Shown here piece by piece: positions 11,491 through 30,500 of a stretch of DNA of 39,034 bases. The notes below the pieces were generated by a model. It was not told where the DNA came from and made no database searches. It saw nothing but the letters and a program-made list of their open reading frames with translations. Made by a program: the position numbers and the translations under genes. This stretch comes from Roseofilum capinflatum BLCC-M114 (lineage in GTDB: Bacteria > Cyanobacteriota > Cyanobacteriia > Cyanobacteriales > Desertifilaceae): assembly GCF_030068505.1 (NCBI RefSeq), contig NZ_JAQOSO010000040.1, positions 1 to 39,034 of the forward strand, written 5' to 3'. Position 1 is the first letter of the stretch, and each line of letters begins with the position of its first letter.

Positions 11491-11509
11491 TTTCGCTACG
11501 CGACATGAA
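11491..11509 (-). repeat. Small TTCATG hairpin element, copy 1
   Basis: On the minus strand this reads TTCATGTCGCGTAGCGAAA: the constant ends TTCATG and GAAA around a hairpin TCGC-GTA-GCGA. It sits in the loop of the GGGGCGGGTT/AACCCGCCCC inverted repeat. It belongs to the same family as copies at 23052, 23897 and 27601, but with a shorter stem. Confidence 0.7.
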
Positions 11510-11632
11510 TACAGAGTTGATGATGGGTGTCCTAGCTTTGGGTATAACCCGCCCCTACAGGTTTTTTGGCCTGTTGCGAAGAATGATTGTTTTAGGGGGT
11601 TTGGAGACCAAACCCCTATGGGTTCGACTGAA

Positions 11633-11869
11633 TTAATATTGGTTTAGGTTGATTCCGGCTTCTTTGGCCATGGCTTGGATGCCTTTGGTTTCTAGGGTTT
11701 TGATGGCTTTGGTGGAGAGTTTGAGTTTGACCCACCGGTTGCCTTCGGGCCACCAGACGCGCTTGCTCTGAAGGTTGACTTCTTGGCGTTTTTTGGTGCG
11801 TCTGTGGGAGTGGGAGATGGCGAAGCCGTTGTTGGCTTTTTTCTTTGTGAGTTGACAGGTACGGGACAT
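11633..11869 (-). CDS. rpmB: 50S ribosomal protein L28 (bL28)
   Basis: A 78-residue basic protein of the large ribosomal subunit. The start [11 protein letters not shown], then [16 protein letters not shown] and the stretch around residues 36-48 ending in [15 protein letters not shown], are diagnostic of bL28. The length is normal for cyanobacteria. AGAGG lies about 6 bases before the ATG. Transcribed alone on the minus strand. No tight neighbour suggests an operon. Confidence 0.97.
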
Positions 11870-11930
11870 GGGTTACCTCTTTTTTTGCTGCAATCTCTTA
11901 TTGTAGCCTGAATTTGCTGGGTTGTTGATG

Positions 11931-12023
11931 CCCTCATCCCCCAGCCCCTTCTCCCACGGGAGAAGGGGGGTAAGAGTTTGTTGCCCTTTCTCCCACGGGA
12001 GAAGGGGGGTAAGAGTTTGTTGC
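11931..12023. repeat. Repeat family CCCCTTCTCCC-AC-GGGAGAAGGGG with direct duplication
   Basis: CCCTCATCCCCCAG leads into the perfect hairpin CCCCTTCTCCC-AC-GGGAGAAGGGG (11945-11968). A following unit of about 38 bp ending in GGTAAGAGTTTGTTG (11946-11983) is then repeated at 11984-12021, so the hairpin occurs twice in tandem. The same element is present in opposite orientation at 1899-1962. Confidence 0.8.
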
Positions 12024-12045
12024 GCTCCCCATCCTCCCTGTCTCC

Positions 12046-12849
12046 TTATTCCTCCTGGTTCATGAGGCGATTGATTTCGTCTTGGTATTCGGGGGGGGCG
12101 AGGGTGGTGGCGCTGGCGAAGATGGGTTTGGCTTGGTCGGGTTTGCCTTGGCGTTGGAGGACGATCGCCTTTCCTAAAAGGGGACGAAAGTCGGTATCAT
12201 TGTCTTCGATGGCTTGGTCGTAAACGGCGATCGCCTCTTCATAACGCTCTAAGTCGGCATAGACGCGCCCTAAGAGGAGTTTGACGGAGGCGGTATCGAT
12301 GGTTTCGGCTTCCGTTTGATTGGCGGTGGTGGCTTTTTGCAGGGTTTCTTCTAATACCCCGATCGCCGCTTGGGGATTATTTTGTTGCAGTTGCAGGTCA
12401 ACTAAGCCTTGCAAAACGGTCATTTCTCCGGGGTTTTGGCTTAAGATTTGCCGATAAATCCCGGCGGCGCTGTCGGGATCTCCGGTGTAATTCTTGGCTT
12501 CAGCCAACAGCACCTGATACTGGACATCTTGGGGGTTGAGTTGGACTAATTTTTCTAAGGGGGCGATCGCTCCTGGAATATCCCGCAATTCTAACCGCAC
12601 ATCCAACAATCCCCGCAACACGCTTTGATTTTCGGGTTCTCGCTCCAAAACCAACTCATAGCCGCGTTCCTGAGCTTCTAATTTTGCTTGACGAGAGGTT
12701 ACGGTTGCAGTCGGAGAAGCCTCAGAACTGGCCGAGGTGGAGGCACGAAAGGCTTCTGTGATCGGGGGAATAGTTGAAACCCCCAACAAGGCGACAACCG
12801 CTAAAATCAAAATGGCATTGATTACCCAACTACTACGCTTAATCGTCAC
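12046..12849 (-). CDS. TPR-repeat membrane-anchored protein
   Basis: A 267-residue protein with one N-terminal membrane helix (residues about 9-30, WVINAILILAVVALLGVSTI) followed by tetratricopeptide repeats from about residue 50 to 255. Recognisable units carry the A-x-x-x-Y...P pattern, for example AIAPLEKLVQLNPQDVQYQ, AAGIYRQILSQNPGEMTVL and AIAVYDQAIEDNDTDFRPL. The start is GTG, the first in-frame start before the membrane helix. The TPR part would face the cytoplasm or the periplasm as a protein-interaction scaffold; the partner is unknown. It stands alone between rpmB and a divergent gene. Confidence 0.85.
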   Translation of the reverse strand: MTIKRSSWVINAILILAVVALLGVSTIPPITEAFRASTSASSEASPTATVTSRQAKLEAQERGYELVLEREPENQSVLRGLLDVRLELRDIPGAIAPLEKLVQLNPQDVQYQVLLAEAKNYTGDPDSAAGIYRQILSQNPGEMTVLQGLVDLQLQQNNPQAAIGVLEETLQKATTANQTEAETIDTASVKLLLGRVYADLERYEEAIAVYDQAIEDNDTDFRPLLGKAIVLQRQGKPDQAKPIFASATTLAPPEYQDEINRLMNQEE

Positions 12850-13074
12850 ACCAAATCCCTTGAACTCTTATCTAGCTATTGTAAGGGAATGGGGAGATGG
12901 GGAGATCGAGTTTTGTTCAAAATCCTGCGGATTTAGTGGGTCGGGGCTTGCATAGAAGAATGGGAAATCCAAGCCTTGTTATAATAGGCTTTTCCTGTTG
13001 GTAACCCTGGCTTTATGCTCAGGGTTTCAGTTTAACTACCCATCTCTTATCTACTCCTCGCCCATTGGTCAAGC

Positions 13075-13848
13075 ATGTCTTCTTATATCTCTGCATCTTC
13101 TTCCGTATCCCCAGAGCAGCCCATTCAACCGATTCCTGCTCCCTCTGAACCCTTACAATACCGGGCTATTGGCTTAATTCGTGGCCGATATTATCCTGGA
13201 GATCGCTTAACCCAGGGAACACTAATTGCTTCAGATGGCACAGAAATTGATGCGGTTTTGCTGGGGCGCATGATGAGTTTACTGAAAAAACATTTAGATT
13301 TGGAAGTAGAACATCTTTGGGTCGTCTATCCCCGCAATCGCGAGAAAGAGGATCATTTACATACGCAAATTATGGGAGTTTGGGAACCGGAAACCCTGGA
13401 TTCTCCTGAACTCTCGGAGACCAACCTTCATCCCTTGATTGCTGATAATTATTTCTCGATTCGCGGAGAAGTGGTGTTCCATTCCCTAGAAACGGGAGAG
13501 GTGAAGATTAAGATTAATCAAGCTCCGCGCAAGAAAGGGGAAAAGCCGCGATCGTTTAAGCTCACCCTAAAAGGCGCTCTAGTCGGTAGAATTTTGCACT
13601 ATTTTTGGGAGTTCCATGTGGTGAGAGAAGGAACAGATTTGGTGATTCAGGAGGCTTTATGTATAGGGCGAGTTTCTAGGGGAAGCAAACCGCGATCGCC
13701 TCGCTTTAGTGGTCGCCGTCAAGGAAGTTACTTTAAGCCCCGTGGTCCTGGCAGTCCTAAACCGGTGTTGTCGGGATCGGGATCGCCGCGTCCCCAGATT
13801 GCATCTCCCAAAAGGGGCGATCGCCGCCAACAATTCCCAGAGCCTTAA
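13075..13848 (+). CDS. Conserved cyanobacterial protein with basic Gly/Arg/Pro/Ser tail
   Basis: A 257-residue protein of unknown function. Residues about 27-200 form a compact conserved domain (YRAIGLIRGRYYPGDRLTQG, then LLKKHLDLEVEHLWVVYPR). The last about 55 residues are low-complexity and strongly basic (GSKPRSPRFSGRRQGSY, KPRGPGSPKP), as in single-stranded RNA or DNA binding tails. I believe the core is a widespread cyanobacterial family but cannot name it. The N-terminus is Ser/Pro-rich and not a signal peptide. The next gene starts 4 bases after its stop, so they are likely translated together. Nucleic-acid binding is inference from composition only. Confidence 0.8.
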   Translation: MSSYISASSSVSPEQPIQPIPAPSEPLQYRAIGLIRGRYYPGDRLTQGTLIASDGTEIDAVLLGRMMSLLKKHLDLEVEHLWVVYPRNREKEDHLHTQIMGVWEPETLDSPELSETNLHPLIADNYFSIRGEVVFHSLETGEVKIKINQAPRKKGEKPRSFKLTLKGALVGRILHYFWEFHVVREGTDLVIQEALCIGRVSRGSKPRSPRFSGRRQGSYFKPRGPGSPKPVLSGSGSPRPQIASPKRGDRRQQFPEP

Positions 13849-13852
13849 GATT

Positions 13853-14365
13853 ATGGCAATTGTCATTTGTCCGGGGTTTCATCCTCCCTCTTTAACGGAT
13901 TGTTTCCTGGACACGATGGAGCTACCCACTCCCCAGCTCGTCTGCACTGGGTTGCCTCTAGATGGAGGAAGCCATGTTCGGGAGTGGGTCAAAACCTGGG
14001 GCAATCCGGAAAAGCAAACCGATAAAATTACGGTCATCAGTTATAGTGCTGGCAGCGTAGGGGCGATCGCCGCTTGTTGGCTGTGGCATCAGTTGGGCGG
14101 CCAAATTCAAGCCTTAATTGCTCTAGATGCTTGGGGAGTGGTGCTAATGGGGCCATTTCCCATTTATCGAGTTAGCCATGATTACTTTACCCATTGGAGT
14201 TCGAGTGTTTTGGGTTTAGGAGATGGAGGATTTTATGCCGATCCAGGAGTCGATCACCAACAGTTATGGCGATCGCCCCATCAGGCGATCGGTTACCGTC
14301 AAATTTACCATCAGACCGGGTGGGAAAAGACAACTGCCCGTGATTTTATTCAATCCTTATGTTAG
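13853..14365 (+). CDS. Alpha/beta-hydrolase-like protein
   Basis: A 170-residue protein. It starts MAIVICPGFHPPSLTD, and the strand and nucleophile elbow ITVISYSAGSVGAIAA places Ser in an S-Y-S-A-G context typical of small alpha/beta hydrolases. ALIALDAWGV follows, as expected for the next strand. It is shorter than typical hydrolases; a C-terminal His is present (Ile-Tyr-His-Gln near residue 156) but the acid is not obvious. A longer in-frame start at 13709 would lie inside the upstream gene. The ATG at 13853, 4 bases after that gene's stop, is better. The substrate is unknown. Confidence 0.7.
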   Translation: MAIVICPGFHPPSLTDCFLDTMELPTPQLVCTGLPLDGGSHVREWVKTWGNPEKQTDKITVISYSAGSVGAIAACWLWHQLGGQIQALIALDAWGVVLMGPFPIYRVSHDYFTHWSSSVLGLGDGGFYADPGVDHQQLWRSPHQAIGYRQIYHQTGWEKTTARDFIQSLC

Positions 14366-14566
14366 AGAACCGGGAAAAGCCCACCTAGATCCCTCTTGCC
14401 CCGGATCGTCTCTTCCCCTTACCCAGCAAGACGTTCAAGTTCTCCCCATCAGCCGTCAGTCCCTGAAAATTTTCCAAAATCGGAATTTTGTGTAAACGAG
14501 CATACCTTTTCTAAAAGGTTCTGGTAATGTGGGACAGTACACTTCACAGGCATGGTAAGGAAAACT

Positions 14567-15709
14567 ATGGCGACAATCGCTTGTGAGTATAAGCCAGGCT
14601 TAGAAGGCATTCCCGCAAGTCAATCGAGCATTAGCTATGTTGATGGGGGAAAAGGACTGTTGGAATATCGAGGGATTTCCATCACCGAACTAGCCCATAA
14701 AAGCAACTTTATTGAAACGGCCTATCTCCTCATCTGGGGTCAACTCCCCACCAAAGAGGAATTGGCACAGTTTGAAGCCGAAATTCGTCATCATCGACGC
14801 ATTAAATATCGGATTCGGGATATGATGAAATGCTTTCCTGAATCCGGGCATCCCATGGATGCTCTGCAAGCATCCGCAGCAGCATTAGGGTTATTTTATT
14901 CCCGTCGTGCTTTGGATGACCCGCAATATATCCGAGATGCAGTGATTCGCTTAATTGCGAAGTTACCAACCATGGTCGCTGCATTTAAGTTAATGCGTAA
15001 GGGAAATGACCCCATTCAACCGCGTGATGATTTGGATTATGCGACCAACTTCTTATATATGTTGACGGAAGAGGTTCCCGATCCAATCGCCGCGAGGGTG
15101 TTTGATGCGAGTATGATCCTTCATGCGGAACATACCATGAATGCGTCAACCTTCTCAGCGCGGGTTACGGCTTCTACCCTCACAGACCCCTATGCAGTGG
15201 TTGCCTCTGCGGTAGGAACCCTAGCCGGGCCCCTCCATGGTGGAGCCAATGAAGAAGTCCTAGAAATGTTGGAGGCGATCGGTACAGTAGAGAATGTACG
15301 CCCTTACATTGAAGACTGTATTGCCAACAAGAAAAAAATCATGGGCTTTGGCCACCGAGTTTACAAAGTCAAAGACCCCAGAGCGAAAATTCTGCAAGAA
15401 TTAGCCGAGCGGCTGTTTAAGCAGAAAGGACACGATCGCTATTACGATATCGCTGTTGAGGTCGAAAAAGTGGTCGAAGAGAAATTAGGAGCTAAAGGGA
15501 TTTATCCTAATGTAGACTTCTATTCTGGACTGGTGTATCGCAAAATGGGTATCCCCAGCGATTTATTCACACCCCTGTTTGCCATGTCACGGGTAGCAGG
15601 TTGGTTGGCTCACTGGAAAGAACAACTGGGAGAAAACCGGATTTTCCGGCCAACTCAAGTCTATGTGGGTAGCCATGAGTCCAAGTATCTTCCCATAGCT
15701 GAACGGTAA
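14567..15709 (+). CDS. gltA: Citrate synthase
   Basis: A 380-residue citrate synthase that condenses oxaloacetate and acetyl-CoA at the entry of the cyanobacterial TCA branch feeding 2-oxoglutarate and nitrogen assimilation. Catalytic residues are visible: His in LHAEHTMNAST, His in GPLHGGANEE, and Asp in YPNVDFYSG; MGFGHRVYK is the CoA/citrate-binding signature. The length fits the short (type I, dimeric) class. An ATG at 14552 is in frame, but the ATG at 14567 has AAGGA at good spacing and gives the usual MATIACEYKPGLEG start. A strong rho-independent terminator follows at 15762. Confidence 0.97.
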   Translation: MATIACEYKPGLEGIPASQSSISYVDGGKGLLEYRGISITELAHKSNFIETAYLLIWGQLPTKEELAQFEAEIRHHRRIKYRIRDMMKCFPESGHPMDALQASAAALGLFYSRRALDDPQYIRDAVIRLIAKLPTMVAAFKLMRKGNDPIQPRDDLDYATNFLYMLTEEVPDPIAARVFDASMILHAEHTMNASTFSARVTASTLTDPYAVVASAVGTLAGPLHGGANEEVLEMLEAIGTVENVRPYIEDCIANKKKIMGFGHRVYKVKDPRAKILQELAERLFKQKGHDRYYDIAVEVEKVVEEKLGAKGIYPNVDFYSGLVYRKMGIPSDLFTPLFAMSRVAGWLAHWKEQLGENRIFRPTQVYVGSHESKYLPIAER

Positions 15710-15761
15710 CCCAGAGAGCGATCGAGTTATTGACTGTTCTCTGTTTACTCGGTATGCACAG

Positions 15762-15786
15762 AAAAGGGGCCCCCAGCCCCTTTTTT
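15762..15786 (+). terminator. Rho-independent terminator of gltA
   Basis: The stem AAAAGGGGC pairs with GCCCCTTTT across a short CCCCA loop and is followed by a T run to 15786. It lies 53 bases after the gltA stop. Confidence 0.9.
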
Positions 15787-15792
15787 AGGTTG

Positions 15793-15829
15793 CGGCTGTG
15801 GCTGAGTGCAACCCGGTCGGCCACAGCCG
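15793..15829. repeat. Perfect 10-bp inverted repeat
   Basis: CGGCTGTGGC (15793-15802) and GCCACAGCCG (15820-15829) with a 17-base loop, directly after the gltA terminator. It has no T tract, so it is not an obvious terminator. It could be a dispersed hairpin or part of the 3' boundary of the minus-strand tRNA transcript. Confidence 0.6.
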
Positions 15830-15910
15830 AAAAGCATTGGAGATTTCGGAGTAGGAGCGTCTGGCTCCCTAGCTCCTGAATTGGGGTTGTTTTTTCGGAT
15901 CTGCTATGAA

Positions 15911-15998
15911 CGGAGAGGGGGGGATTCGAACCCCCGAACAGCTATTAACTGTTAACACATTTCGAGTGTGCCGCATTCAACCGCTCTGCCACCTCTCC
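15911..15998 (-). tRNA. tRNA-Ser (anticodon CGA)
   Basis: On the minus strand an 88-base cloverleaf: the acceptor arm GGAGAGG pairs with CCTCTCC (discriminator G). The D-arm segment is GTGGCAGAGCGGTTGAATGC. The anticodon stem GCACA carries loop CTCGAAA, giving anticodon CGA for codon UCG. A long variable arm follows, as in class II Ser tRNAs, and then GGTTCGAATCC in the T arm. CCA is not encoded. Confidence 0.97.
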
Positions 15999-16149
15999 AG
16001 GGGTTAGGTTTTATGGATCTTAACATAAAGTGGCAAGATCGATCCAAAATTCGTACAATCAGTTACTTAAAACCCGGCGATCGCCAATTATAGTCAAGTC
16101 TATTGGCTCTCAAAGAGCGATCGTACCCTAAGATTCAGGAGGAAGGTCA

Positions 16150-16491
16150 ATGAATTACACCTTTGACATTTTGGGGGTTTCACCCATCCTACATTTTTTC
16201 AATCATCAACAAGAGAAAGCCACAGAAGATCCTCGTCAAGGAGCTGAGTATGTAGCAACCTATGAATGTACCCTAGACGCATTTCTGCAATCTGTTGAAC
16301 CCGTTCCGCCTTCTAGGGGTTGGGAATTAGATCAAGTCGTCGATACCGTCATCCACTACTGGATGAACAACGCCGAAGGGATTCAACATTGGAAAGAGCG
16401 CCTCGATCGGGCGGGAAATGATAACCTACTGGTGGCGAGACTCGCAGATGTCAAAGCCTTAAAAGCCGAATTTAATTCCTTGCTCGGTTAG
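16150..16491 (+). CDS. Conserved cyanobacterial hypothetical protein
   Basis: A 113-residue soluble protein of unknown function. There is a strong ribosome binding site (AGGAGG about 8 bases before the ATG). The N-terminal segment MNYTFDILGVSPILHFFNHQ is conserved-looking, followed by YECTLDAFLQSVEPVPPSRGW and an acidic/amphipathic helical C-terminal half (DTVIHYWMNNAEGIQHWKER). There is no signal peptide, membrane segment or known motif. It precedes a 50-codon membrane-protein gene by 40 bases on the same strand. A real gene is supported by the ribosome site and codon use; no function is offered. Confidence 0.8.
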   Translation: MNYTFDILGVSPILHFFNHQQEKATEDPRQGAEYVATYECTLDAFLQSVEPVPPSRGWELDQVVDTVIHYWMNNAEGIQHWKERLDRAGNDNLLVARLADVKALKAEFNSLLG

Positions 16492-16531
16492 TCCATTCAA
16501 TTAAGGTGAATCAATCCAGGTGAGTTTAACC

Positions 16532-16684
16532 ATGTCCCTCAAAAGTCGATATGTATTCAGTAGCATTCTATTGTTGACCCTGATCCTACTCTTATTAAAT
16601 CGACCCTTCAACGTTGTGGGGATGGCTGGACTCACTACTTTTGGTTTAGCCTATTTCACTAAGGGAATGAGACGCTCCTCTTAG
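16532..16684 (+). CDS. Small membrane protein (50 residues)
   Basis: A short gene: ATG at 16532, TAG at 16682. The product begins MSLKSRYVFSS, has one very hydrophobic helix (residues about 10-23, ending RPF), a second weaker hydrophobic stretch (VVGMAGLTTFGLAYF) and a basic end KGMRRSS. Two short transmembrane helices are plausible. CCAGGTGAG lies about 10 bases before the start. It follows the 16150 gene by 40 bases in the same direction and converges on the cyclase gene, ending 13 bases before that gene's stop. The function is unknown. Confidence 0.6.
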   Translation: MSLKSRYVFSSILLLTLILLLLNRPFNVVGMAGLTTFGLAYFTKGMRRSS

Positions 16685-16697
16685 CCGTAGCGACTGA

Positions 16698-19406
16698 CTA
16701 TGGAAACGTCGATTTATGGGAAACTAACCAGTAAGTATCCATTTCGCCTTTCCCTTTAACGAAAATTTTACCCCGTTTTTCTAAAATATATTGCTCTTTT
16801 AAGGCTTCATAAACCGTTTCCGTCACTTGAATTTTACCCGGTTCTCCAGAGGATTCCATACGGGAAGCCACATTCACCGTGTCTCCCCATAAATCATAGA
16901 TAAATTTCTTTTTCCCAATCACCCCTGCAATCACCGAACCCATATGTATCCCAATCCGGATCTGGAAATTGTCCCCCATGGGGGTTTTGAATTGACCCAT
17001 ATACGCTTGCATGGACAGGGCCATCCGGGCCATAATATCTAGATGATTGGGCATGGGATCGGGCAATCCTCCGGCTACCATATAGGCATCCCCAATGGTT
17101 TTAATTTTTTCGAGTCCATAGGTTTCCGTCAGTTGGTCAAAGGTGGAAAAGACTTGGTTGAGCATGTCCACCAGTTGAATGGGTTGAACTTGAGCAGCTA
17201 GGGGGGTAAATCCGACAATATCGGCAAATAGAATGGTGACGGATTCAAAATCTTCGGCTAGGGAGCTTTGACTATGTTTGAGCTGATCGGCGATCGCCTC
17301 TGGTAAAATATTCAAGAGTAGTTTTTCCGATCGCTCTTTTTCCTGTCTGAGTGCCTCTTCTGCTTGCTTGCGCTCCGTAATATCCCGGAATCCCCACACC
17401 CGTCCCATAATTTGATCGCCAACTTTTTGGGGACGACTAAATTGTTCAAAGACTCGGCCATCCTTAAATGGAATAATCCCAACCCCTTCCGCGTCTAGAC
17501 TGTTCACCATTTCTTGTTGACGTTTCAAAAAAGCGATCGGATCTTCCACTTGCTGGGCCAAAAAATGACGCTGCTGCTCAACATCTTGAGAAGCCAAAAT
17601 TTCTGGGGGAACTTTCCACATTTTGATAAACTGATTATTGTAGGCAATAATTCGCTCAGACTGATCGACGGCAATAATACCATCAGCAATGGATTCTAAT
17701 ACCGCTTTCTGCAACGCGAGGGCATTTTCTAAGGCAATTCGAGCTTCTTTCTGAGGCGTGATATCTCGGACAACCCAGATCACAGAACGATCGGAAATCG
17801 GAGAAACATTCGCTGCAAACCAGTGTTTTTTGCCTTGAATATCCATCTGATATTCGACCCTCTCGGTCTGACCCACTTCCAGAACATAGGCAATGGTCTC
17901 TAAATGCCAATCTGCTAATTCTGGTTCCATAAATTCCCGGATGTTATGGTTGAGCAAATTCTCCTTATTATGAACTAAAAGCTCTTCACTGCCGGAAATG
18001 ATTTTTTCATACTCTCCCTGGCGATTAAAGACTAAAATCAGTTCAGTCATGGCTTCAAATAAGCCTCGCAATTCAGCTTCCGCCGCCGCTAGGGAGGCAG
18101 TTCTTTCGGCTACACGCTGCTCTAAATCTTTATTGCTTTGATCGAGAATCGAAAAAGTTTTAATAAGCTGCTCTGCCATACTATGAAAAGAGACAGCAAG
18201 TTGTCCTAATTCATCAGAGCGATCGGGTAATTCGGGAGAGTTCCAACTGCCAGCAGCTAGGTCTTGAGCGGAGCGATTTAAGGTTAAGATAGGATAGGTC
18301 ACCCAGCGAGCGGTCAAAATCCCAATAATGACAGCAACAATTAAAGCGATCGCACATAAAATAATCGTATTCTTGGTGTTGGCATGAATGCGATCCATAA
18401 AATCAGATTCTGGCACAACAATCACAATTAACCAATCTAAACCATGGTCGTCTTGCAAGGAAAAGACTTGCAGGAAATTCGTCTCTCCTTGTAAATCAAA
18501 TTCTATTTTGTCAGTATTCTTGATATCTTCAAAGTTTCCAAATTTATTTTTGAGAAATACGGCTGTATCTTTAACGATTTGATCTTGACTTTTGTCAACA
18601 AAAATTTGTTCTTTAGACTCTTGAATAAAAAGTTGCTGATCCTGATTGGATGAGGCGACTAATGCTCCGTCGCGCTCCATAATAAAAATCTGTCCCGATT
18701 GACCAATGTTTAATTGTTGCAGAAATTGACTAATATTAGATAAGGAGACATCAACCCCTAAAACGCCTTGAAAGTCACCTTGTCGATCGTAAATGGGTAG
18801 ACTGGCGGTTAATCCTAAACTTTGGGTGGAGACAAAGGGATAAATATCACTCCAAACAGCTTTTTGGTTGGCTTTTGCTTTCTGAAACCAACCGCGAGTT
18901 CTGGCATCATAGGTGGTGGTCTCTAACAGGTCTTGGCGATCGCCTTCGCTATCGACAGAATATTTATAATAGGGGCCACTGACGAAGTTTTCAGTGACCC
19001 GGATAATGGACTGTCCATCATCTCCTTGTCCCGATAGGATAATGCCGCCTTCAGGCGTGCCAAAATAGATAAAGGTGACGGACTGATAAAGTTGACTTTG
19101 ATACAAAAATTTCTGCTCTAGGCGTGAGTAAAAATCGGGATCTCGAAGGTGGAGGCGAATGTGTTGGGCATTGGTTTGATTAATTTGATGAGGTTCCTTA
19201 AGACGATGGCGCAAGTCCCCTTCTACGCGATCGCCAATTTCCGTCATTAATTGATCCGCTAAATCCTGCACAGCCTCCTGTCCAGTGCGGTAGGACAAAT
19301 AACCGACTAATCCCACCGTGGCGCAGATTTGCAGGACAAAAGGCACGACTAAAACCAGCCGTAAAGGAAGACGTTTCAGGTATTGGGACGTTGCTTGCCA
19401 AACCAT
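16698..19406 (-). CDS. Receptor-type class III adenylate cyclase (Cache-HAMP-PAS-PAS-CHD)
   Basis: A 902-residue membrane enzyme predicted to make cAMP from ATP in response to an extracytoplasmic signal. Order: membrane helix about 14-36; an extracellular dCache-like sensor to about 340 (containing DARTRGWFQKA and GVLGVDVSLSNI); membrane helix about 345-365; HAMP to about 420; two PAS domains about 445-690; then a cyclase homology domain about 715-890. Metal-binding Asp about 729 sits in LFADIVGF. Lys about 769 in IKTIGDAYM and Asp about 838 in YDLWGDTVN are the adenine-selecting pair, so cAMP is favoured over cGMP. NVASRM supplies the transition-state Asn/Arg. The layout resembles cyanobacterial CyaG-like cyclases. 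It is divergent from purB. Confidence 0.92.
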   Translation of the reverse strand: MVWQATSQYLKRLPLRLVLVVPFVLQICATVGLVGYLSYRTGQEAVQDLADQLMTEIGDRVEGDLRHRLKEPHQINQTNAQHIRLHLRDPDFYSRLEQKFLYQSQLYQSVTFIYFGTPEGGIILSGQGDDGQSIIRVTENFVSGPYYKYSVDSEGDRQDLLETTTYDARTRGWFQKAKANQKAVWSDIYPFVSTQSLGLTASLPIYDRQGDFQGVLGVDVSLSNISQFLQQLNIGQSGQIFIMERDGALVASSNQDQQLFIQESKEQIFVDKSQDQIVKDTAVFLKNKFGNFEDIKNTDKIEFDLQGETNFLQVFSLQDDHGLDWLIVIVVPESDFMDRIHANTKNTIILCAIALIVAVIIGILTARWVTYPILTLNRSAQDLAAGSWNSPELPDRSDELGQLAVSFHSMAEQLIKTFSILDQSNKDLEQRVAERTASLAAAEAELRGLFEAMTELILVFNRQGEYEKIISGSEELLVHNKENLLNHNIREFMEPELADWHLETIAYVLEVGQTERVEYQMDIQGKKHWFAANVSPISDRSVIWVVRDITPQKEARIALENALALQKAVLESIADGIIAVDQSERIIAYNNQFIKMWKVPPEILASQDVEQQRHFLAQQVEDPIAFLKRQQEMVNSLDAEGVGIIPFKDGRVFEQFSRPQKVGDQIMGRVWGFRDITERKQAEEALRQEKERSEKLLLNILPEAIADQLKHSQSSLAEDFESVTILFADIVGFTPLAAQVQPIQLVDMLNQVFSTFDQLTETYGLEKIKTIGDAYMVAGGLPDPMPNHLDIMARMALSMQAYMGQFKTPMGDNFQIRIGIHMGSVIAGVIGKKKFIYDLWGDTVNVASRMESSGEPGKIQVTETVYEALKEQYILEKRGKIFVKGKGEMDTYWLVSHKSTFP

Positions 19407-19564
19407 TCAGGGGATTGGGGAGAAGGGGAGAAAGGGGAAGAAGACCACAAGGTTGACAGATGGAGCAATCTTGTACTCAAAGTTAGCACACTCGATTCCA
19501 CCCGATCGCCAGAAAGGGCCCTTCAAGGGTAAAATAAGTCGTTGGTACTTCTGCGACACAAGCT

Positions 19565-22072: not shown

Positions 22073-22945
22073 CTATTGCTCTCTAGAAATTTTGTCATAG
22101 AGTCGCTTGAGCATGACTACCATTTCCGCACGAGTCACCAGTTGATTCGGTCGAAAGGTTCCATCTTGGTAGCCACTAATCAGATTTTCTTTGACGGCCC
22201 ATTCCAGGGCATCATAATACCACCGACTGCGACCATCAGGATATACATCTCTAAACATGCGCTTTTTCTCCGTTGCAAACATATAGCCAGAATAATAAAA
22301 CACGCCATTTTCTACCAGACGACTAATATCGCCGACTCTGACGCGATAGTTATTAAACCGTTGGACTCCATAATAATTATCGATCATCACCCTGGCATAA
22401 CTGGGATTTTGCCGGTCTTGGGTCATCCGTACTGCATGGCCATAGGTGCGATCGCCAAATGAGGTTTGATCCAAAAACCCATCGGCATTAAAATCCGCAT
22501 TATATTGGGCGCTGCCTCGATAACCGGTGACTATGCTATAGCCTTTACCCAGGACTGAGCTGAGTTGGGAACTGATCATATCCACCCGATAGGAGGCGAT
22601 CGCCTCTCGACGGTTATTCCACCATCGGCGCAACAAGTCCACCGCCTGATTAATATACCAGCCTTGACTATCGGAAAACCCGTAACGCCGGGCCTCTTGA
22701 AGCAGTTGCCCAAACTCTGCCAGACTAAATCGATACCCGGTTAAATCGGAAATTGCCCCAGCAGCCGCAAACAGCGTACAGGACATCGGATGCAAATCGA
22801 GCTGATTATATTGAATTTGCCGATCCCAAAAAGTCGAAGGAGCAGCAGGAACATCTTCCAGGACATTGCCCAGTCGCCAGTCTGAGGTGCTATAGGCTTC
22901 CTTGGCAGCATAATAGCCGTAAGGAACCGTTTGCTGTTCAGTCAT
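22073..22945 (-). CDS. C39-like cysteine-peptidase-fold protein with C-terminal SLH domain
   Basis: A 290-residue protein. The C-terminal residues about 230-287 are one S-layer homology domain (FRDVYPDGRSRWYYDALEWA, then GYQDGTFRPNQLVTRAEM). The N-terminal part has Cys56 in HPMSCTLFAAAGAISDLTG, His170 in DRTYGHAVRM and Asp189/Asn190 in ARVMIDNYYG. This is a Cys-His-Asn/Asp arrangement like C39/papain-type peptidases or transglutaminase-like folds. DFNADGFLD at 151-159 is a Ca2+-loop-like motif. SLH proteins are normally exported, but there is no signal peptide, and a TAA lies 24 bases upstream in frame, so no longer N-terminus is possible. The catalytic role is inference. A terminator follows at 21932. 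Confidence 0.75.
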   Translation of the reverse strand: MTEQQTVPYGYYAAKEAYSTSDWRLGNVLEDVPAAPSTFWDRQIQYNQLDLHPMSCTLFAAAGAISDLTGYRFSLAEFGQLLQEARRYGFSDSQGWYINQAVDLLRRWWNNRREAIASYRVDMISSQLSSVLGKGYSIVTGYRGSAQYNADFNADGFLDQTSFGDRTYGHAVRMTQDRQNPSYARVMIDNYYGVQRFNNYRVRVGDISRLVENGVFYYSGYMFATEKKRMFRDVYPDGRSRWYYDALEWAVKENLISGYQDGTFRPNQLVTRAEMVVMLKRLYDKISREQ

Positions 22946-23051
22946 AATTTGAATACTGTTGAGCCAAACTTATCAGAGAAATGGGTTGAAAACTCCGTCC
23001 TGAAGGACGGCTTTTCTTGCTTTCTAATATACCAGTCTTTCCTGTTTTACA

Positions 23052-23072
23052 TTCATGTCCGCTTTGCGGAAA
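23052..23072 (+). repeat. Small TTCATG hairpin element, copy 2 (upstream of tnpB)
   Basis: TTCATGTCCGCTTTGCGGA plus AA: constant ends TTCATG and GAAA around the hairpin TCCGC-TTT-GCGGA. It ends 8 bases before the tnpB promoter -10 box TATAAT (23081-23086), so it occupies the spacer/-35 zone. It is identical to the copy at 23897 inside tnpB. Confidence 0.85.
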
Positions 23073-23080
23073 ATCTGTGG

Positions 23081-23086
23081 TATAAT
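23081..23086 (+). promoter_or_regulatory. Likely -10 box of tnpB
   Basis: A consensus TATAAT lies 30 bases before the tnpB ATG at 23116. The position where a -35 box should be (about 23058-23063) is now inside the small hairpin element, so the promoter may be weakened. Confidence 0.5.
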
Positions 23087-23115
23087 GTAAGAAAATTTAA
23101 ACTAAGCTTTACTTC

Positions 23116-24307
23116 ATGGAAAAAGCACAGAATTACCGATTTTACCCAACGCCTGAACAAGAGTCGCTATTGTGACGAACTTTAGGATGTGTAAGATTGG
23201 TTTACAACAAAGCTCTCCATGAAAGAACTCAAGCTTGGTATGAACGGCAAGAAAAAGTGGGTTACAGTCAAACTTCTTCTATGTTAACTCTCTGGAAGAA
23301 GGAATACGACTTAAGCTTTCTTAATGAAGTCAGTAGCGTTCCATTACAGCAAGGGTTAAGGCATTTACAAACTGCTTTTGCCAACTTTTTTGCTAAACGG
23401 ACGAAATATCCTAACTTTAAGAAAAAACATCAGGGCGGTAGCGCCGAATTCACTAAATCTGCTTTTAAGTTCAAGAGTGGTGAAATCTATTTAGCCAAAT
23501 GTGAAGAACCTTTACCTATTCGATGGTCTAGGCAAATTCCTGAAGGATGTTTACCCAGTTCTGTGACGGTTAAACTACACCCGTCAGGGCGTTGGCATAT
23601 TTCCATTAGATTTGATGATCCAACTATCAAACCTTTACCTGCCAATAATAAAGCGGTAGGAATCGATTTGGGTCTGAGTAGTTTGGTAATTACCAGTGAT
23701 GGGGAAAAATTTCCTAACCCTAAGCACTTAAAAAAACACTACCGTAAACTCAGAAGACTTCAAAAAATTCTATCCCGTAAACAGAAAGGATCTAATAATC
23801 GGTATAAAGCCAGGGTCAAATTAGCTAAAGCTCACCTAAAAATTACCGACACACGAAAAGACCATTTACACAAAATAACTACTCAACTAATTCGTGTTCA
23901 TGTCCGCTTTGCGGAAAAATCAAACGATTGGTGTTGAAGACTTAGCTGTGAAAAATATGGTCAAAAACCGAAAACTGTCTCAAGCAATATCTGATGCAAG
24001 TTGGGGAGAGTTGACCCGTCAGTTGGAATATAAGTGCCAATGGTACGGTAGAAACTATATGGAAATTGATCGATGGTTCCCTAGCTCAAAGCGATGCAGT
24101 AATTGTGGACATATTGAAGAAAAAATGCCGTTAAATATTCGGAAATGGGATTGTCCTAAGTGCGGAAAACACCACGACCGAGATATTAACGCCAGTAAAA
24201 ACATTTTGGCGGCAGGGCTTGCCGTTTCAGTCTGCGGAGCGAGTGTAAGACCGGAACAGAGTAAATCTGTGAAGGCAACTGCTAGGAACCAGAAACCTAA
24301 ATCGTGA
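23116..24307 (+). pseudogene. tnpB: tnpB pseudogene (RNA-guided nuclease, broken twice)
   Basis: Reading from ATG 23116 gives MEKAQNYRFYPTPEQESLL, then TGA at 23173, then RTLGCVRLVYNKALHERTQ in the same frame: a nonsense codon where related proteins carry an amino acid, probably Arg. A second lesion at 23897 is a 19-bp hairpin element inserted between ATTCGTG and AAAATC, shifting the frame. Without it the reading would be LIRENQTIGVEDL. Pieces retain the RuvC Asp (VGIDLGLSS), Glu (GVEDLAVKNM), Asp (HHDRDINASKN) and the zinc site CSNCG/CPKCG. Intact TnpB is an RNA-guided DNA endonuclease encoded by IS200/IS605 elements. Two open pieces remain (23197-23937 and 23894-24307), neither likely functional. 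Confidence 0.92.
23897..23917 (+). repeat. Small TTCATG hairpin element, copy 3 (inside tnpB)
   Basis: Same sequence as the copy at 23052: TTCATGTCCGCTTTGCGGA followed by AA. Removing 19 bases restores the tnpB frame and a family-typical protein sequence across the junction, which shows it is an insertion. The element has no coding capacity. Confidence 0.9.
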
Positions 24308-24350
24308 GGTTTAGGAATCCCCTCGCCTTTAGGCAGGGGTGGATGTCAAC
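24200..24350 (+). ncRNA. Candidate omega/reRNA of the TnpB element
   Basis: In IS200/IS605 elements the guide RNA scaffold overlaps the 3' end of tnpB and the right end, with the guide taken from flanking DNA. Here the right end has the expected terminal hairpin (24319-24339) and TGGATGTCAAC, and the flank TTAACCTGAG would be the first guide bases. Its presence is inferred from family knowledge. With tnpB broken it would be an orphan. Confidence 0.35.
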
Positions 24351-24418
24351 TTAACCTGAGTTTGGCCCAGGGCGATCGAGCTATACACCGCCCCAATCCT
24401 CATCAAATCATGAACGAT

Positions 24419-25330
24419 TTAAGTCCCTGTGGGCACAGACCGCAACAACCGCTCGATAATTACCCTCCCTTGTCGTCCTCCGGCGGGAATCATGCGATGG
24501 CATAGCACATGGGGCGCTAAAAATTTGACATCATCGGGGGTGACATAATCGCGATTTTCTAGAAAGGCTAGAGCTTGGCTGGCTCGTTGCAGGGCGATCG
24601 CCCCCCTGGGACTGACCCCCAAGGTAATCTCTTCATCTTCACGGGTTGCCCGCACCAAATCGACAATATATTGCTGTAGGGGCACTTCTACTTTCACTTG
24701 CAAGCATTCTTTTTGCAGGGTCTGCACTTCTGCTAGAGAAATACAGGGTTTTAGGCGATCGGCATTCTTTTCCCCTGCATGTTGTTGCAACATCTTTAAC
24801 TCTTCTGACTCCGTGGGATAACCCAAGGAAAAGGACAAAGCAAACCGATCCATTTGTGCTTCCGGTAAGGGAAAGGTTCCTTGATATTCCACCGGGTTTT
24901 GGGTGGCAATCACAAAAAAGGGAGACTCTAGGGTATGGGAAACCCCATCCACGGTCACCTGCTGTTCTTCCATGACTTCCAGCAGTGCAGACTGGGTGCG
25001 AGGAGTGGCGCGGTTAATTTCGTCGGTGAGCAGCACATTGGCAAAAATGGGGCCGGACATAAACTTAAACTCTCCAGTGTTGGGGTTCCAGATATTGGTT
25101 CCGGTAATATCGCTAGGGAGTAGATCGGGGGTACATTGAATCCGTTGAAACTTGCCATCAATGGAACGGGCTAAGGATTTAGCCAGCAAGGTTTTCCCCA
25201 CTCCAGGAACATCTTCTAGAAGGGCATGGCCCCCAGATAAAAGGGCCACAAGCACCAGACGAATTGGATCGGCTTTACCGACGATCGCCTGATTCAGGTT
25301 ATCGATTAGTTGCTGGATACGCTCTCTCAT
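24419..25330 (-). CDS. MoxR-family AAA+ ATPase
   Basis: About 303 residues. Predicted cytoplasmic chaperone-type ATPase that, in known MoxR systems, helps assemble or mature a partner protein. Walker A is GVGKT in LLEDVPGVGKTLLAKS; Walker B is VLLTDEINRA; ATQNPVEYQGTFPLPEAQMDRF spans sensor 1 and the MoxR insert; GVSPRGAIALQRASQA is the C-terminal lid signature. A GTG at 25372 would add 14 residues. The ATG at 25330 with GGGGAG upstream gives the MRERIQQLIDNLN start I recognise in this family and is preferred. No VWA/DUF58 partner gene is adjacent here, unlike many moxR loci. Confidence 0.88.
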   Translation of the reverse strand: MRERIQQLIDNLNQAIVGKADPIRLVLVALLSGGHALLEDVPGVGKTLLAKSLARSIDGKFQRIQCTPDLLPSDITGTNIWNPNTGEFKFMSGPIFANVLLTDEINRATPRTQSALLEVMEEQQVTVDGVSHTLESPFFVIATQNPVEYQGTFPLPEAQMDRFALSFSLGYPTESEELKMLQQHAGEKNADRLKPCISLAEVQTLQKECLQVKVEVPLQQYIVDLVRATREDEEITLGVSPRGAIALQRASQALAFLENRDYVTPDDVKFLAPHVLCHRMIPAGGRQGRVIIERLLRSVPTGT

Positions 25331-25445
25331 CCACTCATTACTCCCCAAGTTGATTCTTTTAGAATAGCTCACTCCCTAGATTGAGTCTGTTGTTCGCTAT
25401 CTCCATCTCTGCTGGTCAATTGTGCTTTGGCAGGAAGGTTTGCCC

Positions 25446-26558
25446 TTAATACGGCTCGTCGGGATGGGTGTATCCCAAATGAGTCCAAGCGGCAGGTAGG
25501 GCAATTCTACCGCGAGAGGTGCGCTGTAAAAAGCCAATTTGCAATAGATAGGGTTCATAGACTTCTTCAATGGTTTGGGAGTCTTCCCCGGTAGCAGCAG
25601 CGAGGGTTTCCAACCCGACCGGGCCGCCGCTAAAATTCTCGATCATGGCGCTTAAAATCAGGCGATCTGTCCAATCTAAACCGCAGGGATCGACATTGTA
25701 GAGTTCTAAGGCTTCGGCGGCAATTTCTGAAGAGATGGTTCCCAGTTTTTTCACTTGGGCGTAGTCGCGAACTCGGCGCAAAAGGCGGTTGGCAATGCGA
25801 GGGGTTCCGCGCGATCGCCGGGCAATTTCGGTGGCTCCTTCGGCTGTGATCTCTGTACTTAAGACTTTTGCGGCTCGTTCGACAATTAAACTTAACTCGT
25901 CTAACTCATAAAAGCGTAATCTTTGCAGCAACCCGAAGCGATCGCGCAAAGGAGAGGTTAAGGCCCCGACTCGCGTGGTTGCCCCCACCAGGGTAAAGGG
26001 TTTCAGGGGAATGCTGCGGGTTTTGGCCGTCTTCCCTTTACCCACGGTAATATCTAAGCGGAAATCCTCCATGGCTGGATAAAGTAACTCTTCCGCCACC
26101 CTAGAAAGGCGGTGAATTTCATCCAAAAATAGGATATCTCCCGGTTGCAAACTGACTAATAAACCGACAATATCGCGGGGACGTTCTAAAGCTGGTGCAG
26201 CACTGATTTTGCAGGTCACGCCCATCTCGGAGGCTAAAATTAAAGACATGGTAGTTTTGCCCAAACCCGGCGGCCCGTAGAGCAATAAATGATCCAAGGG
26301 TTCCTTTCGAGCTTTTGCCGCTTCAATGGCAATTTCTAGCACACTTTTGAGGTCTTTTTGGCCCACATAATCGGCTAATCGATGGGGGCGTAATTTTTCT
26401 TCCTGTTTGTCTGTTTCCTCAAAACTCGCTTCCGCTTGTAAGAGGGAATCTTCCCGATCGGGTTCTCGTTTTTTCTGCGCTTCATAGGTTTTGCGACTGG
26501 TACGCATCTGCCGTTTTTTGGGATCGGGAAAGGAGGGGTAGGAAGACTCAATAGCCAT
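25446..26558 (-). CDS. ruvB: Holliday junction DNA helicase RuvB
   Basis: A 370-residue hexameric motor of the RuvABC branch-migration complex. Walker [10 protein letters not shown], Walker [13 protein letters not shown], sensor/arginine-finger region [12 protein letters not shown], and the C-terminal winged-helix DNA-binding domain ending [18 protein letters not shown] are all present. Cyanobacterial RuvB has an N-terminal extension; here about 65 charged residues precede [11 protein letters not shown]. The ATG at 26558 is followed by [17 protein letters not shown]. No ruvA or ruvC is nearby. It is divergent from the 26684 gene across a spacer with two inverted HIP1 sites. Confidence 0.96.
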
Positions 26559-26683
26559 AATTTGGGAGCAATTAAAAATTAAAAATTAGATTTCAGATAA
26601 GAAACAGCACAGTAGAATGTTGATAGCGATCGCCTCTTGAGCCATGGCGATCGCTGCTATTGATGTTAATTAAGCTTGAGATG

Positions 26684-27244
26684 ATGTCTTATCCCTCCTT
26701 AACTGTGCCAGAAAACGTCGGCTTTGAACAGGCGATCGCCCTCACCCAAACCTTTCTTGACCTTCTGGAACAGGGAGAAGTCAGCGAAGCAGTGATTGAA
26801 ACCACTGTCAGCGCGTTAGTCAAAACCCAAAACGGAGCCAGGGGATTTTTTGTCACGTATTTGACCGATGAACGGGCTTTGAGCGATCGCCCCACTCCAG
26901 CAGTTATTCGGGGTTTGCAGTCTTCTCCCGAAATGGTTAGCGAACTTCTTGTCAAAAATGTCGCCATGTCTACCGCCATGGCCATCACCCACACTCGCAA
27001 TCAAAACCCAGACCTGGCCGCTAGTTCTCAACAAGTCAGAGACCGCAGTTCCCACCTCATGACCCAACTGCAATTACCCGAAGTCAAAGATAAGGCACAA
27101 CAGCTTTACGAGAGCGCCCAAACGGGAACCGGAGCATACCAAGGTTTCCTAGAGCGCTGGGGGTATGATGCAGAGCAAAAACAAGCCATTCAAGCTGCTC
27201 TAGAACAAATTATACCAAATCTAGAAAAGAATGCTAGGTTATAG
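26684..27244 (+). CDS. Conserved cyanobacterial hypothetical protein
   Basis: About 186 residues, mostly helical, no signal peptide or membrane segment. It begins MSYPSLTVPENVGFEQAIALTQTFLDLL. The middle has TQNGARGFFVTYLTDERALSDRP and the end is RWGYDAEQKQAIQAALEQII. I take it as a conserved cyanobacterial protein of unknown function. In-frame ATGs at 26660 and 26681 are also possible; the MSYPSL start is chosen because the residues before it look non-conserved. A likely terminator follows at 27359. It is divergent from ruvB. Confidence 0.75.
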   Translation: MSYPSLTVPENVGFEQAIALTQTFLDLLEQGEVSEAVIETTVSALVKTQNGARGFFVTYLTDERALSDRPTPAVIRGLQSSPEMVSELLVKNVAMSTAMAITHTRNQNPDLAASSQQVRDRSSHLMTQLQLPEVKDKAQQLYESAQTGTGAYQGFLERWGYDAEQKQAIQAALEQIIPNLEKNARL

Positions 27245-27358
27245 ACCCCCCAAACTCCGTTAATAAGCCTAATGCTGTATTAGGGCAACACTCACTGACC
27301 TCCACAATAGTTTTAACATTTCTTCATAATTTAGAACTCAGTCCCATACAGGCTACAA

Positions 27359-27390
27359 CCCTTGATTCCAAAGGAATTGGGGGTTTTATT
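27359..27390 (+). terminator. Probable rho-independent terminator
   Basis: CCCTTGATTCC can pair along its whole length with GGAATTGGGGG (including three G-U pairs) around an AAA loop, followed by TTTTATT. It lies 115 bases after the 26684-27244 gene and ahead of the shared leader at 27416. Confidence 0.5.
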
Positions 27391-27415
27391 CATTTCAACG
27401 CCCCTTGAGGCAATT

Positions 27416-27538
27416 ATGAAGTTTTATTACAAAATTCCGGATTTTGCATAAAAACACCCCCCCAAAACCTGACTACCTTATAGAAGCCTTCGTTGCTTCT
27501 GCTCAATTATCCATTGTGCATATGCCGAGGATTAACTC
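27416..27538 (+). promoter_or_regulatory. Shared leader/promoter module, copy A
   Basis: From ATGAAGTTTTATTACAAAA through TTTTGCATAAAAA, CCTTATAGAAGC and GCTTCTGCTCAATT (27416-27508) this aligns without large gaps to 32127-32218 in front of the PEP-CTERM gene. AGAAGC (27482-27487) pairs with GCTTCT (27495-27500). GAGGATTAACTCATG supplies the ribosome site. Boxes for a sigma factor are not certain; TATAGA is a possible -10. It is likely a common promoter and 5' leader. Confidence 0.65.
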
Positions 27539-30500
27539 ATGTCTTTAATCAACTGGTTTGACAAACCATCGCCCAAAACCACCAAACCCCAGAACTCTCA
27601 TTCATGTCGGACGAAGTCCGAAACCTTTATTCTCGAACCCATCCTTACCCCCAGTGGTATCGTGGATGGATTCGATGAAACCCCTGATGCCCTTCCCCTA
27701 GAGGATATCGAGGTTCCGGAGGTAGACGCGCCAGAAGTCGCAGATGCACCAGAGACGGAAGACACACAACCAGACATCGCCACTACAGACGAGGTAGAGG
27801 CAGTAGAAACACCCGAAGCGGATAACCTGATTCCAGACGCGGACATTGAGGAGATTGAGTTTATTACCGACTCCCCGACAGCAGACGCTGAAGAAGTTAA
27901 CGGTGTTGAAGCTGTTGAAACAGAATCAGAAATTGACGGTTCCCCAGAGAGTGTTGTCGCGCAAGCCTTAAGCGACGCGCCCAATGCTGACTCAGCCAAT
28001 GAAGATGTTGTTGAGCCTGAACTCACCGTCGATAACGCCGATCCGGAGATTGAACCCGATGACACTACGGGTGAAGAGGATCTCACCGTTGCAGATCGGG
28101 CAGATGAGGCCGTTCCTCCTGAATCTGAAGCTGATGAAGGTGCTGAAGCGGATGAAGACAATGCTGATTTAGGCACTGATGCGGCGATCGCCGACAACCC
28201 AGATGAATCAGCCCCCACGGACTCCGAACCTGAAGAGACTACCGACGAGCCAGTTGAAGACTCAGAAGACAATGAAGAGGCGCAACTGACTCCCGTAGAA
28301 CCCGAAGAACAGTCTCCAGCCCCAACCGGCATCTTCACCGTTGGCGAAACCGGAGAAATCGAAATCGAGTACCTCTTTGACGGCGGCAAATATCAGGGAG
28401 AAGTCGCCCTCTTTAGCTTAGACGGCATGGACGACCTAGAACCCGGTTCAGAAGCCTTTATCCAAGAAGCCGCCGCTCGCGCCTTGGGTATCGAACCCCA
28501 ACCCGATGTAGGGGTGGATTTATCAACCGATTTGTCCGACCCAGATTTAGGTGAACCCGCCCCCACCGACACCGATTTACCCGCCGAAAATGCCCCTAAA
28601 TTGGGTGAAATCGTCATTTCTGACAAAACAGAAGGCGCGAAATTCGAGGGCATTCTAGGCGAAAAGAACTGGAATAAAGGCGAATTTTCCGGCGTGAAAA
28701 CCGTGCAGATGCGCCCTGGGGATACCTTCGGCATCATGCTCGTTCCCAACAAAACCGTACAACAAGTCTTTGACAATCCCAGCATCGGCGGTTCCGGTCG
28801 TCCCCTATTCTCCCTCTCCACCGCTAATCCCGATGGTGGCTTCCATGTCGGACAAATCGCCGATGTGACCGGAGATGGCAATACCTTCGTCATGGAAGAT
28901 ATCCGCGTCGATGGCAGCAGCGACTATGACTACAATGACATCATCTTCCGCATCAAGGGTGCAACTGGCGATGCCGTCGATCTTGATGATGTCATCGATG
29001 CAGACAACGACTGGCGCGAAACCGAACTCGGTCAAGAAATTCTCGACTATGTTTTCGACACTCTAGAACCCGAAGATGTCGCCGCCACCATCACCGATGA
29101 CCTCGACACCGAGCTTGTTCCCGAACTCGAAGACGTTCTCAGCGAGCTGAAAGAACAGTTAGAGGAAATTACCGAAAATCCGGATATCGTCAATGAAGAC
29201 CCACCCCCTGACGCACCCACGGAACAAGAGCAAGATGCCCTCATTGCCGAACTCAACGCCGAACTCGAAGCAGCCTTTGCCGAGTTAACCGAAGACGAGT
29301 TTGCCGATGTTAACGCTCTCGCCGGTAAATTTGAATTCGACCCAGAAGATCAACCCCTCGTCGGAGTCATCGATACCGGATTTGCCGAAACCAACCCCGA
29401 CATTGACGACAGTCGGATTACCCTGGGTAAAGATTATATCGATGGCGACGATAATCCCTTATTAGCCGAAGGGGAAGGAGATGACCACGGGACAAAAGTC
29501 TTAGAAGTCATTGCGGCCACTCAAAACAACAACGTTGGTATTGACGGCGTTAACGATGATGCTCCCCTGTGGTTGGGACGTGCTGTTGGTTCTGGCAAAT
29601 GGGCCGATTCTCTCGTAGAATTTGTCGATGCCGCCAAAGAATCCGAGCAACCCAACGCTGTCGTTAACCTCAGCTTTGATTTAACCCAAGAAAACCCCGA
29701 TGGCTCCATTACCACCCGCACGGAATTTACCGAGCCGGAAATTGCAGCCCTCAAATATGCTCGCGATAACAACGTCTTGATTGTTGCCGCAGCCGGGAAC
29801 CAAGGGGAAGCGGTGATGTCTGCCTTGGGACAAGCTTCTGAGGATTTCGACAACGTGATTACCGTTGGTGCAGCCGATGAAGCCGCAGAACGGGCGGAGA
29901 ATTCTAGCTACGGTAACGGTTTAGACCTGCTTGCTTACGGTAGTAGACTTGATGACCCCACCACTCTGGCACAAGATCCTCAAGTGGATGCCTTTGCTGG
30001 CTTAAGCGCAGAGGAGATTGAGTTAGTTGAGCTTCTGATGGAGCAGTCAGAAGATTCGGGTACAGAGAACGCTGCTACTAATTCTCCTGGTGGTGTTGCG
30101 CCCACTGCACCCATTCCAGACAATAATACTGGGGAAAATGCCAGCACTCCTACTCCAGCCGCTCCTATTCCAGCCAATGAGCCGGGTAGTAGCATCACCA
30201 GCACTGAAACGAGTATTCCGCCATTGCTCAACGATAACTTCAATACCGAGAATCTGGGCACAGGAGACATTGCCACCCTTGACCCCATTCTCGATAATGC
30301 TGACACTTCAGAAAATCGCCTCTTGTCTTCAGAAGAAGAAGCTAAAGCATTGGCAGCGACTCAAAAAATGCTGGCGAATGTCTTGGCTTCCCTGGAAGAT
30401 AGCGACGATAGTGAGTGGGGACAACCTGCTCTTACCGGAACGTCCATTGCTGCGGCTAAAGTGACGGGTGCAGCCTCGCAAGTGTGGGCGGCGAATCCGG

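Follow-up and report, generated by a model that had tools for sequence, protein, structure and literature searches.

The 39,034-nucleotide stretch of Roseofilum capinflatum BLCC-M114 analyzed here (contig NZ_JAQOSO010000040.1 of assembly GCF_030068505.1; hereafter the window) carries four copies of a very short element, which consists of the constant sequence TTCATG followed by a hairpin with a TC/GA foot. One copy, a 17-bp element (TTCATGTCGCGTAGCGA) on the minus strand at 11493..11509 that is followed by AA at 11491-11492, lies between open reading frames (ORFs), within a GGGGCGGGTT...AACCCGCCCC repeat. Two more, both of 19 bp and on the plus strand, occupy a tnpB-only insertion sequence (IS) of the IS200/IS605 type (22970..24355, plus strand), which has domain matches to OrfB_IS605 and Cas12f1-like_TNB and over whose span copies from G000:C74, G005 and G009 align (G000 being the genome of the window, G005-G009 its congeners). 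The upstream one (TTCATGTCCGCTTTGCGGA, 23052..23070, target AA at 23071-23072) sits in the IS leader ahead of tnpB, and the other (23897..23915, target AA at 23916-23917) splits tnpB (23197..24307, plus strand) into two frames (ORFs 23197-23937 and 23894-24307). The last copy, a 21-bp element (TTCATGTCGGACGAAGTCCGA, 27601..27621, plus strand, target AA at 27622-27623), lies near the start of a subtilase gene (27539..31582, plus strand; an ORF with Peptidase_S8 and DUF4114 matches). A preliminary description of the window had reported these four copies, with coordinates and strands that all proved correct, and a search for TTCATGTC(N6-14)GAAA returns exactly the same four, against a mean of 0.09 in dinucleotide shuffles (none of 100 shuffles reaches four); a fifth TTCATGTC in the window, at 33094 on the minus strand, has no such hairpin. 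The description had also placed copies in spacers, next to a promoter and inside genes: the spacer and gene locations hold, but the "promoter" copy at 23052 and one "gene" copy, at 23897, share a single IS.

Three of the four copies have empty counterparts: that of the 27601 copy is the orthologous site in G007, and those of the 23052 and 23897 copies lie in further copies of the IS. The site at 23052 is empty in the IS copies at L053 (1 of 20 junction bases differs), L049 (2 of 20) and, in the R. capinflatum genome itself, L043 (4 of 20); that at 23897 is empty in L053, L049, L062 and L046 and filled in L043; and the element at 27601, which adds seven in-frame codons to the subtilase gene, is absent from the G007 orthologue (L054, 3 of 20). 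For all three copies, the sequence left after removal of TTCATG..GA differs from the empty junction at 1-4 of 20 positions, and no base is duplicated. The empty sites thus define the unit, and the final AA of what had been described as a GAAA right end belongs to the target: GA closes the element, and the unit measures 17-21 bp (17, 19, 19 and 21 bp in the window), not 19-23 bp, with a hairpin stem of 4-6 bp including TC/GA and a loop of 2-5 nt. No empty orthologue was found for the 17-bp copy, whose site holds an identical hairpin in G005 (L048) and a different one, of the CCGC-GAA-GCGG type, in G007 (L041). Within the IS, the insertion at 23897 is common to both own-genome copies compared (window and L043), the insertion at 23052 occurs in the window copy only, and both are missing from the other-species copies that extend across the two sites (L049, L053). 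The simplest order of events would be that an element entered tnpB, the IS copy was duplicated, and a second element arrived later.

Over all fetched loci, and with the three window cases included, at least 11 distinct target contexts have clean empty copies, among them GATCCCCCT^AAATCCCCC, CCCTCTCCCT^AAATCCCTC, CTTCGCT^AACGC, TTTTGTA^AACCCGCC and GTTGGTG^AACCCGCC; misaligned "empty" cases (the TATCAAGTTCGC context and a few more) were excluded from this count, and most of the comparisons are between copies of one host repeat or IS. In the clean cases nothing is duplicated or lost, and the unit sits directly 5' of AA. An element can itself be a target, as at L099:4339, where, judged by eye, one copy interrupts an older one of inverted orientation at its CATG^AA, and the older copy in turn lies within a repeat resembling the repetitive extragenic palindromic (REP) type. 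Several host repeats carry different stems at an identical position; in the CTTCGCT^AACGC group, CGC-GAA-GCG occurs eight times and GGC-GACA-GCC four times. These same-site differences were drawn from the groupings of target contexts and from the orthologues of the 11491 site (a list of apparent swaps was mostly misalignment and was left unused), and either repeated insertion at a preferred site or an exchange of hairpins would explain them. A chimeric element at L102:8400 (TTCATGTCCGCGACAGCCGA) combines the left arm of one subtype with the right arm of another, the two meeting at GCGA.

The family is abundant in its own genome, with 276 matches to TTCATGTC(N6-14)GAAA compared with 6 for the reversed pattern, and varies up to about 29-fold among species of the genus: the six Roseofilum genomes G000 and G005-G009 have 276, 409, 14, 175, 36 and 31 matches (reversed controls 6, 6, 2, 2, 7 and 7), and 235, 374, 2, 151, 21 and 18 matches to the stricter TTCATGTCNGC(N2-4)GCNGA (control 0). 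Four genomes of other genera in the same family search (10 genomes) have 3, 10, 8 and 6 matches, with controls of 9, 4, 2 and 3. Among the 80 listed of at least 120 stretches from named genomes, 71 belong to R. acuticapitatum or R. halophilum (the species of G005 and G007), four to an uncultured cyanobacterium (UBA2566), and five are single matches in unrelated bacteria. In a class sample of 291 genomes, on which the statement of absence beyond Roseofilum rests, no genome outside the genus exceeds 19 matches; G239 has 9 against 1 in the control, but six of these are one string without a paired stem. As far as sampled, the TTCATG signature is enriched in Roseofilum only and is not itself a Nostoc family. 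A second genus, g3, holds two or three copies per genome of the subtype with a GGAC/GTCC stem, one of them with a mismatch. In g3, TTCATGTCGGACCGGGTCCGAAA stands 8 bases ahead of an ATG at L033:1500 and 2985, in two near-identical leaders 1.5 kb apart, and the same subtype occurs in G002 and G004.

Counts over the six whole Roseofilum genomes, which were not chosen by matches, fix both ends and the target. AA, which makes up 8.4% of the dinucleotides in the window, follows 786 of the 801 occurrences of the stricter pattern, and when CATGTCNGC(N2-4)GCNGAAA is sought instead, TT precedes it in 786 of 816 cases. When hairpin cores were sought with no tag specified, TTCATGTC stood before 47 of 49 in our own-sequence sample, which comprises the window and 20 stretches picked for holding matches, so that this figure, like the end and target counts from relatives' loci fetched by pattern, is skewed. 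Three sets of contexts, which overlap in part, show few C residues directly 5' of the element (0 of 15, 1 of 29 and 0 of 12), and one position further 5' most bases are pyrimidines.

The hairpin is kept while its bases change. Among the matches listed, two or more flush pairs within the TC/GA foot occur in 34 of the 73 distinct Roseofilum inner sequences, compared with 7 of 113 in other genera; when arms were re-dealt among sequences of equal length, the mean was 21.4 and the maximum in 2000 rounds 30, the mean being high because subtypes share arms. The main stems after TC are CGC, GGC, GC, GGAC, TGC and CAC, each with its complement, so that subtypes keep their ends and vary stem and loop with pairing preserved, as the preliminary description had noted from the four window copies alone. 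It had suggested that structure, not sequence, is selected or copied, and had proposed a genome-wide search and a comparison of empty with filled sites as a check for a mobile structured element; the many copies, far in excess of chance, the compensated stems, and the clean empty sites of three window copies and the further contexts all support such an element. Judged from these comparisons of sequence, Roseofilum very probably harbors a family of very small mobile DNA elements.

The composition of the loops bears on the form in which the unit might move. GC stands immediately before the loop in 28 of 37 stem-and-loop types (one type from another genus), and among the 27 types with loops of 3-4 nt, 13 have GNA or GNNA loops on the TTCATG strand and 2 on the opposite strand. 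Four of the five GNNA types are not GNRA, and the tetraloops are mainly GACA, GATA and GGTA. According to PMC4686876, a DNA mini-hairpin is extraordinarily stable if its loop is GNA or GNNA and it contains two or more G-C pairs, GCGAAGC melts at 78 C and is nuclease-resistant, and CGCGAAGCG, the core of the commonest subtype here, is among the sequences used. The excess of GNA and GNNA loops on the TTCATG strand points to a folded single DNA strand.

Copies are more numerous than insertions. Our own sequence (400,870 bases) contains 60 elements, or 55 after those with identical 30-bp flanks are dropped, and the 55 fall into 15 contexts under loose grouping and 26 under strict grouping; insertions are therefore fewer than copies, and most sampled copies sit in larger repeats and were probably multiplied with them. 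A 166-bp repeat with TATCAAG..CTTGATA inverted ends (L095:9543-9708, with similar ones in L098 and L101) holds two elements about 117 bp apart, one CGC-GAA-GCG and one CGC-TT-GCG, and its two contexts account for 89 of 150 GA-foot copies in relatives' loci (pattern-fetched and thus skewed). A tandem array of 44-bp units at L096:9899-10052 (G000:C1) holds four elements, with one GGC-GACA-GCC per unit.

By its features the family may be placed with the very small mobile repeats of cyanobacteria known as small dispersed repeats (SDRs), as a representative from Roseofilum that has ends of its own and targets AA. The SDRs of Nostoc and its relatives, reportedly described by Elhai and colleagues in 2008, are said to measure 21-27 nt, to have compensated hairpins in SDR4-6, and to sit in heptamer repeats, in minitransposons and nested in one another. 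The Roseofilum units resemble them in being about 20 nt long (at 17-21 bp, at or below the lower SDR size), dispersed and built on compensated hairpins, and in lying within larger small repeats and within one another, with ATTAACA-like flanks that look by eye to be of the heptamer type. They differ in genus, in ends (TTCATG..GA) and in target, AA and not HIP1, and the likeness drawn here is one of described features. Precise insertion is a further shared trait, SDR5 being inserted between nucleotides 3 and 4 of HIP1 (PMC4390886). Three 50-kb plasmid stretches of Trichormus and Nostoc lack TTCATG elements, and C-GNA-G hairpins are not in excess there (16, against 138 for a ninefold number of loop types; the corresponding figures in our own sequence are 103 and 467). 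The preliminary description had left open whether the family belongs among the Nostoc-type repeats: the kind appears to be the same, whereas the signature is a Roseofilum one in the genomes sampled. Among the papers listed by our literature searches, none has a title or abstract opening that concerns TTCATG elements or such Roseofilum repeats.

A search for TC(Y)C-GTA-G(R)GA, which we take to be a Nostoc motif, gave no match in the Nostocaceae plasmid stretches and 2 in 87 genomes of the class, and found it in 5 of 60 genomes of the order, 23 times in G095, a member of another family (control 0; 23 of 23 stems matched). The G095 hairpins share the TC/GA foot, the C-GNA-G loop and the compensated stem with those of Roseofilum, but have a 5' tail of ..CGTAGCG or ..CGCAGCG instead of TTCATG and are followed by AG; they suggest that the foot and the GNA loop form a wider theme. 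Compensated hairpins of the same motif with CGTAGCG/CGCAGCG tails occur at L280, L284, L279, L283 and L285, in other families of the order.

IS200/IS605 derivatives lack target duplications and terminal inverted repeats, have a one-sided target and carry hairpins near their ends. The Roseofilum units share these traits, being inserted beside a fixed short target that is not duplicated; they differ in that the entire unit is one hairpin of 17-21 nt with a tail. With REPs and their REP-associated tyrosine transposases (RAYTs, or TnpAREP) they share the form of a short, non-coding, dispersed hairpin with a constant single-stranded 5' tag. REPs (for REPs and REPINs see also PMC3116915), as defined in PMC6006769 and PMC3733652, have a GT[AG]G or CGTC tetranucleotide at one end and a stem of 7-20 paired nt; the tag here is TTCATG and the stem 4-6 bp, which sets the units outside the REP class. 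The genus has two kinds of RAYT gene, each with its own GTAG-type repeats. We rejected both as mobilizers, RAYT A (a Y1 protein, 179 aa in L078 and L094) for its own GGTAGGGTGTGTTGCGGC-type repeats, amid arrays of which it lies at L078, L079 and L094 (G007, G000 and G005), and RAYT B for its GTAGGTTGGGTT repeats. Among the 30 loci compared, RAYT A is found in the three high-copy genomes, and no locus from the three low-copy ones groups with it, a contrast of three against three related species that is weak. No TTCATG hairpin flanks the RAYT genes at L078, L079, L094 and L084; at L083 there is one, some 440 bp upstream of a RAYT gene with GTAG repeats of its own. The sequence TTCATGTCGATGCGA beside TnpA (L068, L075), considered as a possible element, reads by eye as tnpB coding sequence.

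How would such a unit move? In the route we propose, a single DNA strand, with TTCATG on the 5' side of its mini-hairpin fold, would be the form that moves, and a trans-acting HUH/Y1-type enzyme that handles single strands would join it 5' of AA (3' of TT on the opposite strand). Next to the foot of the hairpin, the element's first TT could pair with the AA of the target, much as IS200/IS605 guide sequences pair with theirs, so that CATG would bulge out. DDE transposases duplicate their target, and the missing duplication, the one-sided dinucleotide and the mini-hairpin-like strand together fit single-strand joining better than a DDE reaction or reverse transcription. As a whole, mobile mini-hairpin units joined as single strands by an HUH/Y1-type enzyme are the best explanation we have, with an even chance of being right; the single-strand DNA route taken by itself is about equally balanced, and a Y1 enzyme as the mobilizer falls somewhat short of that. 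The most specific version, a folded strand built on d(GC-GNA-GC), recognized by its ends and shape, not by its stem sequence, and inserted in trans 5' of AA, possibly with exchange of hairpins, is tentative and rather doubtful; we know of no mobile element as small as 17-21 nt.

Two other accounts are each improbable. The same units could spread by way of RNA, with reverse transcription of the copy into the target site; this route, reportedly proposed for SDRs, would equally preserve short structured units whose stems are compensated. All six genus genomes have reverse transcriptases (2, 6, 2, 3, 3 and 3 in G000 and G005-G009), but their numbers track copy number poorly, even if the genome with most copies also has most of them. 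GNRA is the stable RNA tetraloop class, whereas the prevailing tetraloops here fall outside it and GNA loops are a DNA mini-hairpin motif. Alternatively, a few old insertions may have been multiplied solely by larger mobile repeats, REPs and IS copies, the unit itself being now immobile. The collapse of 55 sampled copies into 15-26 contexts, and the share of the 166-bp repeat in relatives' loci (skewed as that set is), are what such passive spread would produce; against it stand single contexts, in genes and in IS copies, whose empty sites are clean, the presence in one genome of an IS copy with and an IS copy without the 23052 element, and the wide range of copy number among congeneric species. 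That the hairpins are immobile and held by selection as terminators, mRNA stabilizers or protein-binding sites, the constant ends serving for recognition, is very improbable: structure is indeed conserved where sequence is not, and at L033, in another genus, an ATG is closely preceded by the related TTCATGTCGGACCGGGTCCGAAA, but copies lie within the subtilase gene and within tnpB, which is split by one of them, and the matching sites are empty.

Several observations weigh against the single-strand mobile mini-hairpin that we favor. Mobility is read from comparisons, not from excision or insertion seen in real time; the site at 27601 is the sole orthologous chromosomal empty site; in context L198 the difference between filled and empty sequence is 20 bases, one above the 19-bp unit; and the nested case L175 shows a base change at the junction. 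Compensation lies between subtypes, and decayed single copies show no clear strand preference in wobble pairs (G.T to A.C decay is 11 to 6, and some of the strings may not be elements). The loop types are kin by descent, which makes the P values of the loop tests too small, and one type comes from another genus; common subtypes have TT and TTT loops, not GNA, and nearest-neighbor DNA energies are almost equal for both strands, with triloops on equal stems scoring alike. No enzyme is tied to the family: the Y1 loci scanned (30 of 34 Y1 matches) hold other hairpins or no consistent copy, with only scattered TTCATG hairpins, none seen as element ends in those 30 loci, and the number of Y1 (PF01797) matches (4, 8, 0, 9, 9 and 4 in G000 and G005-G009) does not track copy number.

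Hundreds of 17-21-base hairpins in a filamentous cyanobacterium are among the smallest mobile-looking DNA units. Adding 17-21 bases at a time, such insertions create or disrupt reading frames, as in tnpB and the subtilase gene. To our knowledge, how repeats of about 20 nt move has been an open question since SDRs were described, and Roseofilum offers a test bed for it, with precisely defined ends, a target that is almost strictly AA, insertions whose order in time can be read within IS copies, and 14-409 matches per genome. If the single-strand reading is true, the DNA shapes that transposase-like enzymes can move would extend down to a single mini-hairpin.

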